From positions 1 to 64,000 of the IMG/VR virus record IMGVR_UViG_3300021963_000003: a stretch of 64,000 bases of DNA; one strand, given 5' to 3'. Positions 3,770-64,000 of the stretch are shown one piece after another. Made by a program: the position numbers and the translations under genes. The first letter of the stretch is position 1. Each line of letters begins with the position of its first letter. The notes beneath the pieces are model-generated. The model had not been told where the DNA came from, did no database searches, and was given only the letters and a program-made list of their open reading frames with translations. The DNA comes from a virus.

Positions 3770-6700
3770 TTCTTTTTTATTAATTCGTTGTATATATCTT
3801 CTGTCTCGTAAGCTTCTTTAGACGATGTTCCGTAGTCAATAAGTCCGTCAATTACTTGTCTTGCTTTTGCCGCGTCATTATCGTACATATACTTAATTAA
3901 TTTAGCTTTCCCTTCTGCTCCTTTTGTGTAATGCAATATCTTAACTTCATTGGCTATATCAGATTTAATATATGACCTGTCTATAGCGTTGTTATCTATA
4001 AGATTAGCTTTTCTGTCGATACGTTCCATTAATTGGTCACTGTCCCAATATCCAGATTCCTTAGCCATCTTGTCAACATTAGTAAAGAAATTCTTAGAGT
4101 CAGCTTTATACATATTTTTTAATATAGTATCAATAGATTTATCAACATCATTATATTTCATTGACTCCTCTTTGCTCATCTTATATAATTCCTCATTGCG
4201 CCTAAATTCTGCTTTTTCTGCATCTGTAAACGTAGCAAATCTTTTGGTGACTGTCTTCAATAATTTACTACCAGAAAGACCACTCTCCCCAAATTCTCCT
4301 TCGCTTTTAGCAGGTATAATTTTATTTGCAATTTCAGATAATACACCATATCCCAATCCTATTAATATGTTGGTAGACGGAGCCGTAATAAATGTTTCAG
4401 CTACTGCCTGCATTTTCTTGGGAGATACTTGATTTTGAGATGTATTATTAGACATAGAGCGAGCCATAGCCTTATAAAAATAAGGAATGTTAGGGTCATC
4501 CTGTCCTCTCATATACGGAGACAATTCTTGGTCTCTATCGCTTTCTATCTGCTTATCTCTAAATGAATCATAATTCATTGCTCCCTTGATAACAGCATTT
4601 GCAAGCACGTGCTTAGAAATTATTTTAGGTATCGCATTCTTAATTCCTTCAATAGAAGTAACATTAGGAATAGGAATAGGTGATGCTACATTTAATAAAT
4701 CAAAGAACCTGTCTGCTGCGGGAATATCTTTTTGCTCTTTACCCTGAAGTTGCCTCATTGTCATTTCTGCAAACGTTCTTGTAACGCCTAAAAATGGAAC
4801 TAACGTTGGGTTATTTTTAACGTCAGCAGTAACAAAAATAGGATTTCCATTAGCATCTTTAACCTTGGTATCAAATGCAAACAAGAATGAATATAAATCT
4901 TTTCTGTATTCATCTAGTTCATCATATGCATCGCCCATAAGAGCCATAATAGCCATTGTGCCTAAGAACTTTCCAACAACAAGTTGCGATAACTTGGCTG
5001 CTGTTTGCCCCTTATTATCAGCAATATATTCTACTGCTGCGCCCGCCGCCTGAATACTAGAGTTTAGGTAAGCTATATTTAAATTAGGTAAGCTAGTTCC
5101 TCTCTGAGCAAAGTCCGTATAAGCCCTTGATTGAGCAGCTGCAATTTCTTGAATCTTTAAGATATCAGATTCGTTAGGATTAGCCCCTCCATTCTCATCT
5201 TGGAACTTCTTAATTAAGTTTTTCTTAGATTGGTCATACGCCGCTAATCTCATAGCTAATTCAGTCTTCTCGTTCATATAAGATAAAACTGCTTTAGCTT
5301 TTGTTTTAAGCCATTGACCTTTTTTATTTTCTTCGCCATTTACAAGTGCAATATTAATACTACGTTGGCGTTGCTCTTTCATTGTAGACATCCTGTCCAT
5401 AGCCCCACCTGCAGAAATATATTCTTGCAATGTTTTATCCACAAACTCTTTATTATTTCCAAAGAAATCAGAGAATTTAATTGCTCTTGCTAAAGCTCTG
5501 GCTCCTGCTGAGTAAACGTTTGATTCTATTATTCCTCCCTGTGTCCATATATCAGAAAAGAATACTTGCTGCTGCAAGTCCATTGAAATATTACCAATCC
5601 AGAATACAGGGTTATTTCTTGTTGCAAATCCCGTAAGTTGCCTATTAGCCCAATCTGTTGTATTGTAGTAAATATTGCTAACTGTGCCAGATAATTCCCC
5701 ATCTTTCCAAACAATATTATTCCCTTCTATTTGATTAAACATTTCTGTTTCCATCTGATAGTAATTGATAACTCCATCTTTTTTATATGGAACATTAACA
5801 AATCCTTCGTCAGCATTATTAACAGACAATTGTTTTCCGTTAGAACGTATGTTACCTTGGTTATCTCTTAGGTAATTCGCAGGACGCATAAAGGTAATTT
5901 GTTGCCCGTTCTTGCCAATTACAGCAGATTGAATTCCATTCTCATCCGTCTTAATATTCTCATCAAAAATAGCCTCTCTTAACTTATTCTTAGCTATTGC
6001 TCTTGCTGTACCTATGTAGCTTTCTGCTAATAAAAGTCTAGCATCTTGTTCCAAGAAATTCTCAGTACCTTCTTTGGATAATGCCGCCCAACCCTTAACA
6101 GATGAAACTCCATTAAGCATTGTAATAGACATATCTTGCTCCCCATATAACCTGTCTAAGGTTTTTCTATATGAATAAAAATCATCCTTGTAAGTATCTG
6201 CAATTTCTTTTGAGATTATTCCAGCATCTCTAAGTTTTATTACTTGCTCATTACCAACCTTGCGATACATATCAGCACGTGCTGTTAACATATCATATTC
6301 AGATTCGCCTATCTCTAATCTTAAAGCATCTAAGAAAGCTTCAGCAGTTTGTGACGTTGCGTCTGTTCTACCATCAAGAGTTTTACCGTGTTTCTTTACA
6401 GGAACATTAGTTCTAGCTTGTCTTGTAATTGAAGCCGACTCAATAGACGATGGCATACGACCAATAGTATCAATAAAATTAACCGTCAATTTCTCTATTT
6501 CATCTTGGTATTGCCTCTCAGTATTTTTATCTACCTGAAGTATACGCAAGTTAAATATCATTAAGTTCAATTTCTTTTCTCCTTGTTCTTGTAAGCCATT
6601 GCCAAAAATATCATTATATATCTGGCTTAATTCTTGTCCTGCTGAATAAGCGATTCCATTAAGGTTTCTTAATCTTGATTGAGCCAAACTTGTTTGAGTG

Positions 6701-43833: not shown

Positions 43834-44496
43834 CTATACGCTTTCTAACTCCATCTTTTTACCAAATATATCAGATTGCCTAACTGTAAAATATTCTACA
43901 TCTTCAATCTTATTTATAAAATTTGAGTTCTTAGCAAGTACTACCGTATCACCCTGCTTTACGTCCAATTCTTTTTGATTCAACAAGGGCTTGCCAATAT
44001 AAGAAAGCTTCGCAAACTTGACAGACTTCTTCTTTTGAATTGAAGTGACAAGACCCGCGCCGCTTAGTGTCGCCTGTATCGTGCGACCCCCGACCTCCAC
44101 GCTCTCAAACTCTTCCTCCTCTTCAACAATCTGACTACATAAAGTCCACCCTCCAACAGGTAATATATTGCCGTCCCTAACAACACAAAAAATCCAATAG
44201 TAAGGTACTTTATAACTATTGCCGTATACACAATTTGTTTCATCTGACGTAGTTAAATAATGAAAATAAACTTTGTCTCCAACTCTCACCTCCTGCTCTA
44301 TCTCAAAGCCTTCCTCGTTGTAGCACTTGCCTTGCGGGATAGCCTCGACTATACCATAAATTCTTGCGTGATGTGTTGGGTTAAAAAGAGGGTCAATAAA
44401 CACCTCTAAACTTCCGTGTTTGTAGGTCGAGTCTAATGCCTCCTCAACGCGTACGATGACAGCATTTACTGCTGATTGCTTGATGTTGTAGTTCAT
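43834..44496 (-). CDS. GroES-like co-chaperonin candidate
   Basis: This encodes 220 residues from MNYNIKQSAVNAV. It appears as two GroES-type beta barrels in tandem. The first (EQEVRVGDKVYFHYLTTSDE followed by WIFCVVRDGNILPVGGWTLC) and the second (LDVKQGDTVVLAKNSNFINK followed by VEYFTVRQSDIFGKK) each have the GDxVxF/L ... xxxVRxxDIxG pattern. Phage co-chaperonins help fold the capsid protein with host GroEL, and this gene heads the head module. A start 33 codons upstream is possible. I chose this ATG because a promoter core (TAACTTTG) lies at 44526-44533, inside that extension. The function is inferred. Confidence 0.6.
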   Translation of the reverse strand: MNYNIKQSAVNAVIVRVEEALDSTYKHGSLEVFIDPLFNPTHHARIYGIVEAIPQGKCYNEEGFEIEQEVRVGDKVYFHYLTTSDETNCVYGNSYKVPYYWIFCVVRDGNILPVGGWTLCSQIVEEEEEFESVEVGGRTIQATLSGAGLVTSIQKKKSVKFAKLSYIGKPLLNQKELDVKQGDTVVLAKNSNFINKIEDVEYFTVRQSDIFGKKMELESV

Positions 44497-44525
44497 CTTA
44501 TTAATTATTGTCTGGTTTGTAAATT

Positions 44526-44533
44526 CAAAGTTA
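44526..44533 (-). promoter_or_regulatory. -7 promoter element for the leftward (late) operon
   Basis: The minus strand reads TAACTTTG, matching TAnnTTTG, 29 bp upstream of the GroES-like ATG. A TTG occurs only about 12 nt upstream, closer than the usual spacing, so the -33 match is poor. Confidence 0.5.
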
Positions 44534-44888
44534 TATAATATTTCCCAATATATCCACCATACTTTGCGTCTAAGCAACTTAAATAGTTTAGACAATAGAT
44601 TGCCTTAAGTTTGTTTTTTAGTAGCGTAGGGTTGTCGAAAAAGGGTTATATATATTATCCGACACCAACCAAATGAAAACGACAAACGACATTTATTTAC
44701 CGAGTGGGGTCAACTTCCTTAATCCAAATTCCAAAATTCCTAGGACATTTAGATAGTTGTCTAATTAACTAATTCTATACTTAGCCATTTTGCTAATTAG
44801 TTGTTTAGCTAACTATATATTTAGTCAATCATCTAACCAAAAGAAAAACTATGTTACCATATATTAGAAAGGAAATCTATATTTCTAT

Positions 44889-45227: not shown

Positions 45228-45259
45228 GTATTTCGTCGACACATTCCTGTATTTCGTCG
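45228..45259. repeat. 11-bp direct repeat
   Basis: GTATTTCGTCG occurs at 45228-45238 and 45249-45259, 21 bp apart (two helical turns). This is typical for side-by-side protein binding just upstream of the rightward promoter. Confidence 0.6.
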
Positions 45260-45288
45260 CTATTCTATGATATTATTATTGCTATGTA

Positions 45289-45318
45289 TTGTATAAATAA
45301 AAAGGTTTAGTACATTTG
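45289..45318 (+). promoter_or_regulatory. Bacteroidota-type promoter of the structured RNA
   Basis: TTG (45289-45291), 19 nt, then TACATTTG (45311-45318). This is an exact match to the -33/-7 consensus of the phylum's primary sigma factor. Transcription would start near 45324, inside or just before the first hairpin of the RNA, and could read on into the anti-restriction gene. Confidence 0.85.
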
Positions 45319-45320
45319 TA

Positions 45321-45735
45321 ATGTCGAACGAGACATATGGTTGCCACTACTTGAGTGGTGCAAAGGATAAGGGGGCTGAGGTGTAAATTAAGCGGGTTTC
45401 GTACCTAGCTGAGGAACGCTGATAAAGTAGGGTGTAAGTACTCGAAAAAGTCACACAGGTTTAGAGCCAACGCCCCCCGATAGTATGCTTAAAGCGTTCT
45501 TTGATTTATTGACTTATAAGTTATAAGCGTCACAGCCACGAAACGGCTGACTCCACAGGTAGATAGGGGACACCCCGCACCTGTACGCACTGAACTCCTG
45601 TGTTGTCGAGAGGTAGTCTAGCTTACTAGACGGACAAAGCCAAACCGCAACACTAACCGCAAGGTAGTTGACCCGAAAGCGTAGCAACGAATAGATTGGA
45701 TGCAGGGCGGTTCGATTCCGTCCCTATTCGCTACA
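45321..45735 (+). ncRNA. Ornate structured RNA candidate, ~415 nt
   Basis: No open frame covers this block, and base composition is more GC-rich than the flanks. Perfect or near-perfect stems seen by eye: ATGTC/GACAT (45321-45336), CCACT/AGTGG (45344-45358), GGGGGC/GCCCCC closing about 100 nt (45371-45376 with 45472-45477), CTTATAA/TTATAAG (45513-45527), CAGCC/GGCTG (45533-45549), ACAGGT/ACCTGT with GGGG/CCCC nested (45555-45584), GTGTTG/CAACAC (45600-45653) enclosing GTCTAG CTTA CTAGAC (45616-45631), and the T-arm hairpin at the end. It could be a free RNA or a long leader of the ArdC operon. No family was recognised, and it is shorter than GOLLD or ROOL. Confidence 0.75.
45681..45734 (+). 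ncRNA. tRNA-like acceptor plus T-arm hairpin
   Basis: GTAG, a 3-nt bulge, CGAATAG on the 5' side pair with CTATTCG CTAC on the 3' side (11 bp). Inside, after a 10-nt one-sided bulge ATTGGATGCA, GGGCGG TTCGATT CCGTCC forms a 6-bp stem with the canonical T-loop sequence TTCGATT. Only an acceptor-like stem and T-arm are present, so it is not a complete tRNA. It resembles the 3' part of a tmRNA. Confidence 0.7.
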
Positions 45736-45758
45736 CAACAATGTGTAAATATATCGAT

Positions 45759-45776
45759 TCGGTCTAGGTTAACCGA
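45759..45776 (+). promoter_or_regulatory. Hairpin before the anti-restriction gene
   Basis: TCGGT CTAGGTTA ACCGA, a 5-bp stem, ends 12 bp before the ArdC ATG at 45789. It could tune translation of the first early gene. Confidence 0.4.
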
Positions 45777-45788
45777 TACATTAAAGCT

Positions 45789-46742
45789 ATGGCAACATAC
45801 ACAAAAACAGAAAAATTAACTCAGTCGCAAATCATTGACAGCATCAACGACAGGGTAATCGCAGGACTACAGGACAAGGGACTTAGTTGGTTCAAACCAT
45901 TTAAGGACGGCGTAACAGGTAGCTTTCAAGCTCTCTCCGCATATGGCAGGGCTTACAAGGGTTGGAATCAATTTATCCTTTCGTCTATTGCTTTAGAGCG
46001 CGGCTGGGTCAACAAGTGGTACACCTTTGCACATATCCAAAAATGCGAGGGCTACATTAATAAAGGCGAGTCAGGTACTAACATCTTTATGTGGCAAATA
46101 AGCTACGCAGTTGAGCGTAACGGAAAGACCACGTTTTACCCTGTGTTAGCGAGCGTACCTGACGCCGACAAGAAAGACGCTAAGAAAGTATTCTACCTTA
46201 AGCAGTGGAAAGTATGGTCTATATCACAGACTAACATACCACACAGCACACCTAACCTGCCTGTGACAGAGGAAGAGACGGAGCTTGACTCCCACGCAGA
46301 CGCTGAGGCTATCCTGCAGGGTTGGGGCAAGGTTGTCCCTACCAAGCACACGAATCAAGGGCGGGCTTATTACTCCCCGTCTGCTGACTTTATCCATATG
46401 CCTGAAAAGACATCTAAGATGTGGCAGTCAAGCGGTGACTATTACAAGGTATTCTTTCACGAGGCTATCCACAGCACAGGTCACAAGTCTAGACTTAACC
46501 GCCTTGAGGAGACCGCGCGATTTGGTAACGAGGAGTACAGCAAAGAGGAACTAGTGGCGGAACTTGGAGCGTTGTACCTAGAGACTATCACAGGAATCGA
46601 TTGCCTAGTGGACGACTTCAAGAACAGCCAAGCATACATCAACGGATGGATTAAGGCAATCGCTAACGACAAGAACCTTATAATGCAGGCATCTAAGAAA
46701 TCACAAGAGGCTGTAGCTTTAATATTATCTAACGTAAACTAA
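45789..46742 (+). CDS. ArdC-type anti-restriction protein
   Basis: This encodes 317 residues. The N-terminal half (residues about 8-150, RVIAGLQDKGLSWFKPFKDG, then GYINKGESGTNIFMWQISY) fits the ssDNA-binding ArdC N-terminal domain. The C-terminal half has a zincin site, VFFHEAIHSTGHKSRLNRLE near residue 224 and EELVAELGALYLE as the third-ligand helix. ArdC proteins protect entering DNA from host restriction. It is the first early gene after the structured RNA, in keeping with a role at entry. Confidence 0.9.
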   Translation: MATYTKTEKLTQSQIIDSINDRVIAGLQDKGLSWFKPFKDGVTGSFQALSAYGRAYKGWNQFILSSIALERGWVNKWYTFAHIQKCEGYINKGESGTNIFMWQISYAVERNGKTTFYPVLASVPDADKKDAKKVFYLKQWKVWSISQTNIPHSTPNLPVTEEETELDSHADAEAILQGWGKVVPTKHTNQGRAYYSPSADFIHMPEKTSKMWQSSGDYYKVFFHEAIHSTGHKSRLNRLEETARFGNEEYSKEELVAELGALYLETITGIDCLVDDFKNSQAYINGWIKAIANDKNLIMQASKKSQEAVALILSNVN

Positions 46743-49212: not shown

Positions 49213-49479
49213 ATGAATGTAAGAGAAATGTTTGAGGGCAACGACGCCCAAATAAAGAACAGCTACGCCTACATAATCGGCAGGTTTGCGTATCGTCGGA
49301 TGTACACCAAGAACGAGACTCCAGAAGACCACGCAATTAAAAAGATTTGCGACATCTACTTTTATGCTCCTGAGATGATATCAGTCAAGCAGTTAGATTG
49401 GGTCATTAGGTACGCCACTAAGTTTAGGATTGAATATCCTATTACGTCGGCACAATCAGTGGTTTCGTCTACAAATTAG
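49213..49479 (+). CDS. Hypothetical early protein, 88 residues
   Basis: From MNVREMFEGNDAQIKNSYAY, then IIGRFAYRRMYTKNETPEDH, it is helical with a basic patch (FRIEYPITSAQSVV at the end). No recognised domain. The start codon is set by leader copy 4. Confidence 0.55.
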   Translation: MNVREMFEGNDAQIKNSYAYIIGRFAYRRMYTKNETPEDHAIKKICDIYFYAPEMISVKQLDWVIRYATKFRIEYPITSAQSVVSSTN

Positions 49480-63940: not shown

Positions 63941-64000
63941 CTCTTTTGTCTCCCGCTGTATCTGATTTAGAGCCTCTATTTACGGAGGCTTTTTTCATTA
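63890..64000. repeat. Terminal direct repeat, right copy
   Basis: Identical to 1-111. It carries the end of the last plus-strand gene and part of the minus-strand gene at 32-301, which is cut off at the window edge. Confidence 0.97.

Follow-up and report, generated by a model that had tools for sequence, protein, structure and literature searches.

What is the block of DNA at positions 45321-45735, wedged between an early promoter and the first gene behind it, and what could an RNA copied from it do for the phage? The block lies in the window, the whole 64-kb stretch of phage DNA analysed here, and coordinates throughout are positions in this window, on the plus strand unless stated. A leftward cluster holding terminase, portal and other genes lies on one side of the block, and on the other a rightward early operon begins with an ArdC-type gene.

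Genomic setting

The following features frame the block:
45289-45318, plus strand: Bacteroidota-type promoter of the early operon, TTG-N19-TACATTTG, an exact pattern match
45759-45776, plus strand: hairpin TCGGT-ctaggtta-ACCGA before the ArdC start, seen in the sequence; similar hairpins stand before many early genes of relatives
45789-46742, plus strand: ArdC-type antirestriction gene, with Pfam ArdcN and MPTase-PolyVal domains
63969-63992, plus strand: strongest forward terminator-like site, a 9-pair stem followed by a T run, identified by consensus match only

The original prediction described a noncoding block behind an exact promoter and shortly before ArdC, and this outline was borne out. 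No sense open reading frame of at least 50 amino acids lies within 45321-45735, the promoter is found at 45289-45318, the pattern TTG-N19-TANNTTTG has 9 matches in the whole window against 1.7 expected, and about 53 nt separate the end of the block from the ArdC start at 45789. The G+C fraction is 0.45-0.48 in the block versus 0.28-0.36 in the preceding spacer. Judged from its sequence, the site at 63969-63992 is probably the end of the early operon, which up to that point spans about 18.7 kb.

A Bacteroidota-type promoter also precedes most homologous leaders in relatives. It is replaced by a sigma-70-like TTGACT-N18-TATAAT at the leaders of L010 (upstream of 3009) and L039 (reverse strand, upstream of 5790). 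Repeats of the type TTTCGTC(G/T)ACACA, about 20 nt apart, occur upstream of early promoters at 45231-45265 and 49442-49475, and the same type of motif is found upstream of the relatives' leaders; these repeats are possible operator or activator sites. Furthermore, a hairpin with a TAGGT(N)AA-type loop and a varying stem recurs about 10 nt 5' of early start codons, in the window at 45759-45776, ~46760, 47125 and 48225, and in L003 at 3675, 4035, 4369 and 4707. The divergent neighbour, a minus-strand gene at 43834-44595, carries a Cpn10 (GroES-like) domain at its C-terminus.

A structured leader RNA and its relatives

Comparison with homologues confirms the block as a genuine structured RNA that had not been catalogued before, with these parts:
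45320-45733, plus strand: leader RNA, predicted to extend from about the transcription start to an N-C-N-A end, with covarying homologues in 14 other contigs
45343-45359, plus strand: 5' hairpin CCACT...AGTGG in the consensus fold, kept in L043, L001 and L171
45371-45477, plus strand: long-range helix GGGGGC/GCCCCC (45371-45376 with 45472-45477) closing nested stems, in the consensus fold with L043, with one one-sided change and no break
45555-45584, plus strand: nested hairpin CAGGT...ACCTG with GGGG/CCCC in the consensus fold

The long-range closing helix was already drawn in the original prediction. That the stems exceed chance finds no support from the single sequence and good support from alignments with relatives. 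Folded alone, the block has an MFE z of -0.93, and 17 of 100 shuffles fold equally well; because folding energy does not separate it from shuffled sequence, a list of stems is by itself no evidence. A decayed tRNA cluster, a group I intron or stems formed by chance in a spacer rich in G+C would sit well with this low score. Against such origins, ARAGORN found no tRNA or tmRNA in the block, an Rfam search of the block (gathering threshold and E<=10) returned no intron and no other family apart from one chance match, and the covariation described below, present in five subgroups and in the tRNA-like element, contradicts them unless the alignments are artefacts. We therefore find these origins very hard to credit.

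Relatives were collected from viral contigs by ArdC, terminase, upstream-motif, and RNA-module/boxA-module pattern searches. The leader RNA occurs in 14 other contigs at the same position, just downstream of the early promoter, and all leader-bearing relatives are metagenomic contigs. When 50,697 phage records were searched by blastn with the window block and three further leader types, no real match came up, so no cultured phage with the leader RNA was found. The nearest homologue is in L043 (reverse strand, 4727-5147), with 87% identity over the aligned block, and more distant subgroups are formed by L001/L171, L007/L008, L003/L004/L174, L005/L011 and L006/L009/L010/L039. Leader lengths in the relatives' subgroups range from 196 to 482 nt.

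Alignment folds of the subgroups were scored against column-shuffled alignments. The consensus fold of the window and L043 reaches a z of -3.7, and its 110 pairs include 5 compensatory changes, 7 one-sided changes and none that is broken, such that all 17 substitutions at paired positions preserve pairing; that none is broken is in part a consequence of predicting the structure from the same sequences, and the shuffles serve as the control. Two of the compensatory pairs fall in a hairpin behind the boxA-like word and two in the acceptor stem of the tRNA-like element (both described below). The other alignments gave z of -4.1 with 15 compensatory pairs (L001/L171), -3.7 with 14 compensatory pairs and a break in 17 of 108 pairs (L003/L004/L174), -4.4 (L005/L011) and -2.9 (L006/L009/L010/L039), while the L007 and L008 leaders are near-identical and so carry no covariation information. 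A lack of covariation in homologues had been named beforehand as one outcome that would refute a structured RNA with its own promoter, either a new class or a long leader. With covarying homologues, no Rfam family and a constant place at the head of the early operon, this claim stands.

Absence from related phages had been named as a second such test, and here the outcome is mixed. Against the 14 contigs with the RNA stand L021, L022 and L026, which on inspection keep the upstream region and have a gene directly next with no leader RNA, and L033, in which motif and model scans found no element. Since some relatives that share the upstream region are without it, the leader RNA is optional rather than essential.

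The gene behind the leader also varies, with ArdC further downstream in, for example, L003, L006, L007 and L010. This bears on whether the RNA is a cis-regulatory leader, a riboswitch or attenuator whose alternative folds control ArdC and whose tRNA-like end is a regulatory fold rather than a cut site. Its position directly upstream of ArdC in the window and its high degree of structure would suit such a role; the changing gene behind it and the lack of any terminator-like site on the plus strand in 45321-45789 do not, and we regard it as quite improbable.

A boxA-like signal inside the leader

About half-way along the leader, two features resemble rRNA antitermination signals:
45496-45511, plus strand: boxA-like GTTCTTTGATTTATTG, matching the Bacteroidota rRNA spacer boxA at 14 of 16 positions, with 0 of 300 shuffles as good
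45513-45527, plus strand: hairpin directly after boxA, boxB-like in position, with two compensatory pairs between the window and L043

GTTCTTTGATTTATTG is the only match in the window to the pattern GTTCTTTGANNTNNTG, for which 0.02 were expected. Scanning bacterial genomes with AAGTTCTTTGACATATTGGA returned mostly Bacteroidota rRNA operons, with the word 40-215 nt before the 23S start, and related words such as GTTCTTTGAAAGTTTGG stand about 90-160 nt before the 16S in a subset of those operons. In E. coli rRNA operons, boxA occupies these two positions and is necessary and sufficient to load antitermination factors (PMC10250234). A NusB gene is present in all 31 sampled genomes of the phylum. 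Our literature search on Bacteroidota boxA found no direct precedent.

Ten of the 15 leaders carry boxA, as GTTCTTTGA in nine and as GCTGTTTAACATAACG in the tenth, the latter close to the E. coli boxA form TGCTCTTTAACA. The exact word has 20 matches in ~870 kb of these phages, 8 of them in leaders, and otherwise occurs at background level. In the subgroups L003/L004/L174 and L005/L011 only chance-level matches were found, so that boxA is not shared by all members, and because it is missing in these two subgroups the leader must do more than serve antitermination. In the predicted fold of the window's subgroup, a conserved TTAAAG just upstream can pair with part of boxA, a pairing that might regulate boxA or might be a prediction artefact.

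The incomplete distribution of boxA also speaks for a different reading, in which the block encodes a free-standing ornate noncoding RNA with a trans function like that of GOLLD or ROOL, its tRNA-like end merely releases the RNA, and boxA is incidental or serves folding. The RNA is large, covarying and diverse in its domains, and GOLLD and ROOL are likewise phage RNAs found near tRNAs (PMC12286853). Several observations weigh the other way: the leader is always the first element of the early operon, some relatives do without it, and in L009 it is down to 196 nt, yet retains the boxA-like word and the tRNA-like end. Moreover, GOLLD and ROOL are both in Rfam and neither was matched, so that the likeness drawn in the original prediction is not supported and the window RNA is better described as a promoter-proximal leader. 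We rate a free-standing RNA as rather unlikely.

A minimal tRNA-like element at the 3' end

The leader ends in a compact element followed by a hairpin:
45689-45733, plus strand: minimal tRNA-like element, from a pair table over 15 leaders and a model built from relatives' copies
45732-45747, plus strand: hairpin TACACA-ACAA-TGTGTA directly behind the element, seen in the sequence; a hairpin likewise stands behind the element in L001, L043 and L174

The T-arm hairpin of the original prediction is present and proves to be one component of this larger element. What that first reading missed were the two informative parts, namely the boxA-like signal and the place of the T-arm in a minimal tRNA-like element that recurs and has hammerhead counterparts in relatives. 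In the window, the element consists of the acceptor strands GAATAGA/CCTATTC, a mini D-loop TTGGA, the T-arm GGCGG-TTCGATT-CCGTC and the end GCTA; a 10-nt linker replaces the D and anticodon arms, so that it does not form a tRNA cloverleaf.

The same order is found at the end of all 15 leaders: a first acceptor strand of 7 nt leads through a 10-36 nt linker into a T-arm (5-bp stem, 7-nt loop), behind which come the other acceptor strand and N-C-N-A. Of the 12 stem pairs, 11 are preserved in 80% or more of the copies, in several cases as two or three pair types; the exception is the innermost acceptor pair, which forms in 8 of 15 leaders and is a mismatch in the window. These leader-type counts were made by script, because MAFFT was unable to align the acceptor strands across unequal linkers, and the percentages lean towards structure, since the strands were assigned by the pairing itself. 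In the same table the CCA end is usually incomplete. The T-loop reads TTCGNNT in 11 leaders and YTCGCAA in L006, L009, L010 and L039. Most copies have GG inside a very small D-loop (TTGGA, TGGC) in the linker, which would be expected if these bases contact the T-loop.

A second, intergenic form, NNNCTAG-CTTGGAGC-T-arm-CTAGNNN, lies between early genes in L006, L010, L011, L039, L043 and the contig G022 (L174/L188), the last with seven intergenic copies in one operon plus the leader copy; several intergenic copies overlap stop codons. The statistics of these copies and the covariance-model search are independent of the pairing-based assignment of strands. Across 11 distinct intergenic copies, pairing is 100% versus 89.6% in shuffles, with 16 two-sided changes versus 4.0, and sliding the partner columns abolishes the pairing. 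A covariance model built from those 11 copies alone has its sole match in the 64-kb genome at 45690-45729 (E 5.6e-5) and also recovers the element of the L043 leader (E 1.7e-4), both E-values being rough owing to a short calibration. The element model R1 found none in 296 genomes of the phylum of Pedobacter (L050) at E 1e-4, a search with stricter filters and no positive control included, and likewise had no match within the 42 kb scanned of a cultured Flavobacterium phage (L194).

Four exact matches to the T-arm pattern in viral contigs showed no sign of relation, and at least one of them lies within an ordinary tRNA. The word TGTTCCACGTGAAACA in the hairpin behind the L001 and L043 elements is one letter off the ParB site parS; it is better read as the usual hairpin, CGTGG...CCACG, and the likeness is probably coincidence. 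Elsewhere in related phage contigs (L180, L186, L187, L190, L191 and L193) unusual tRNA-like genes stand in arrays; several of them carry insertions or lack a recognisable anticodon arm, and hairpins GACAGCTGGAAAGACAGC are repeated between some of them.

Hammerheads at the same kind of site

Hammerhead_1 matches lie above the Rfam cutoff in L003 and L005 and below it in two further contigs, and core motifs can be made out in L171 and, as a further copy, in L003; the hammerhead covariance model found none in the window. The L003 hammerheads are at 3982 and 4317, and that of L005 is at 4049. Like the intergenic tRNA-like copies, the hammerheads sit at or over a stop codon and are followed by a hairpin and then the next start codon. 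Along L003, a tRNA-like element comes first, followed by three genes that are separated from one another by two hammerheads. Hammerhead clusters around single prophage genes, one of them ardA, have been read as cutting transcripts gene by gene (PMC3088659).

Since hammerheads occupy the same kind of site as the tRNA-like copies, cleavage is the most natural shared role of the two. This same evidence, together with the mostly incomplete CCA end, tells against the elements being uncut tRNA mimics, whether these would divert host or defence enzymes, be charged at the 3' end or couple translation at stop codons. The stop-codon overlap of several intergenic copies and the 3' tRNA-like structures of plant-virus genomes (PMC11143913) lend that reading something, and we hold it to be improbable.

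Proposed mechanism

We give an even chance to the following reading: the leader recruits the host's antitermination complex of the rRNA type, after which host RNase P or RNase Z cleaves at the tRNA-like element and so parts it from the ArdC mRNA. The early-operon leader would be transcribed from its own Bacteroidota-type promoter. The boxA copy half-way along the leader and the hairpin behind it would then bring NusB-S10 and other Nus factors onto RNA polymerase, and the modified polymerase would read through the long early operon, as in rRNA operons. Host tRNA-processing enzymes would cut the element, RNase P on the 5' side and/or RNase Z on the 3' side, so that the folded leader would come free and the ArdC mRNA would start at or just before the hairpin at 45732-45747. 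In relatives, the polycistronic early RNA would be divided between genes by either a tRNA-like element or a hammerhead. Beyond this, the leader may serve some additional function.

Phage RNAs and polycistronic RNAs are known targets of RNase P (PMC11143913). A cut on the 3' side, by RNase Z, would be the better fit, because an RNase P-type 5' cut would fall inside the stop codon of several intergenic copies. In the window the element sits between two noncoding stretches, so a cut on either side would free the leader. RNase Z scores above its curated cutoff in only 15 of 31 sampled genomes, which counts against the proposal, as do the two leader subgroups without boxA, the possible pairing of boxA with TTAAAG and the poorly kept innermost acceptor pair.

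Extended to a group of Bacteroidota phages, the proposal is that minimal tRNA mimics are cut marks between protein genes, replaceable by self-cleaving hammerheads, at which host tRNA-processing enzymes would split a single long early transcript into mRNAs of one gene each. The leader at the head of that transcript would mimic pre-rRNA in its boxA, folded RNA and tRNA-like end. We advance this generalisation tentatively, at somewhat short of an even chance.

Comparison with known systems

The closest counterparts of the leader are rRNA boxA and lambda nut sites, with which it shares a boxA-like word in the nascent leader, an adjacent hairpin and a long downstream operon; the put site of HK022 is another phage nut-type site. 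In Bacteroidota the host word precedes both the 16S and the 23S, the places that boxA takes in E. coli (PMC10250234). Unlike nut and rrn signals, the phage boxA is embedded in a folded leader of 196-482 nt that ends in a tRNA-like element. The hairpin follows boxA here, and known systems are themselves unlike in this respect (boxA-boxB in nut versus boxB-boxA-boxC in rrn). In further contrast to nut systems, no N-like protein was identified here, and boxA is missing in two leader subgroups.

The proposed cut marks recall prophage hammerhead clusters (PMC3088659), which are likewise intergenic elements that would yield gene-sized mRNAs, with one published cluster flanking ardA; the main element here, however, is a tRNA mimic that would need a host enzyme, and hammerheads occur in some relatives only. 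The leader resembles M3 RNA and C4 antisense RNA of P1/P7, known RNase P substrates from phages (PMC11143913), in being a phage noncoding RNA that host RNase P is predicted to cut, whereas here a compact tRNA-like element recurs between many genes and its cleavage is a prediction. The tRNA-like domain of tmRNA shares the acceptor stem, T-arm, reduced D-loop and absence of a normal anticodon arm, but in our case no tag reading frame or pseudoknots were detected, both acceptor strands lie within ~45 nt, and ARAGORN and Rfam were negative. GOLLD and ROOL (PMC12286853) are also large folded phage RNAs associated with tRNAs; the window leader differs in being shorter, promoter-proximal and variable, with its own tRNA-like end and no Rfam match.

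Each ingredient thus has a known counterpart, while the combination, and a reduced tRNA mimic used as intergenic punctuation, appear to be undescribed in the literature searched, where we found no direct precedent for phage tRNA-like intergenic punctuation. If the proposal is true, the boxA copy would clearly exemplify how a Bacteroidota phage takes over the host rRNA antitermination signal, for which we found no literature in this phylum, and the elements would offer RNase P or RNase Z natural substrates of minimal size. In mitochondria, transcripts are cut at the tRNAs that lie between genes; a phage operon punctuated by tRNA mimics would connect this mitochondrial tRNA punctuation with the hammerheads placed around prophage genes.
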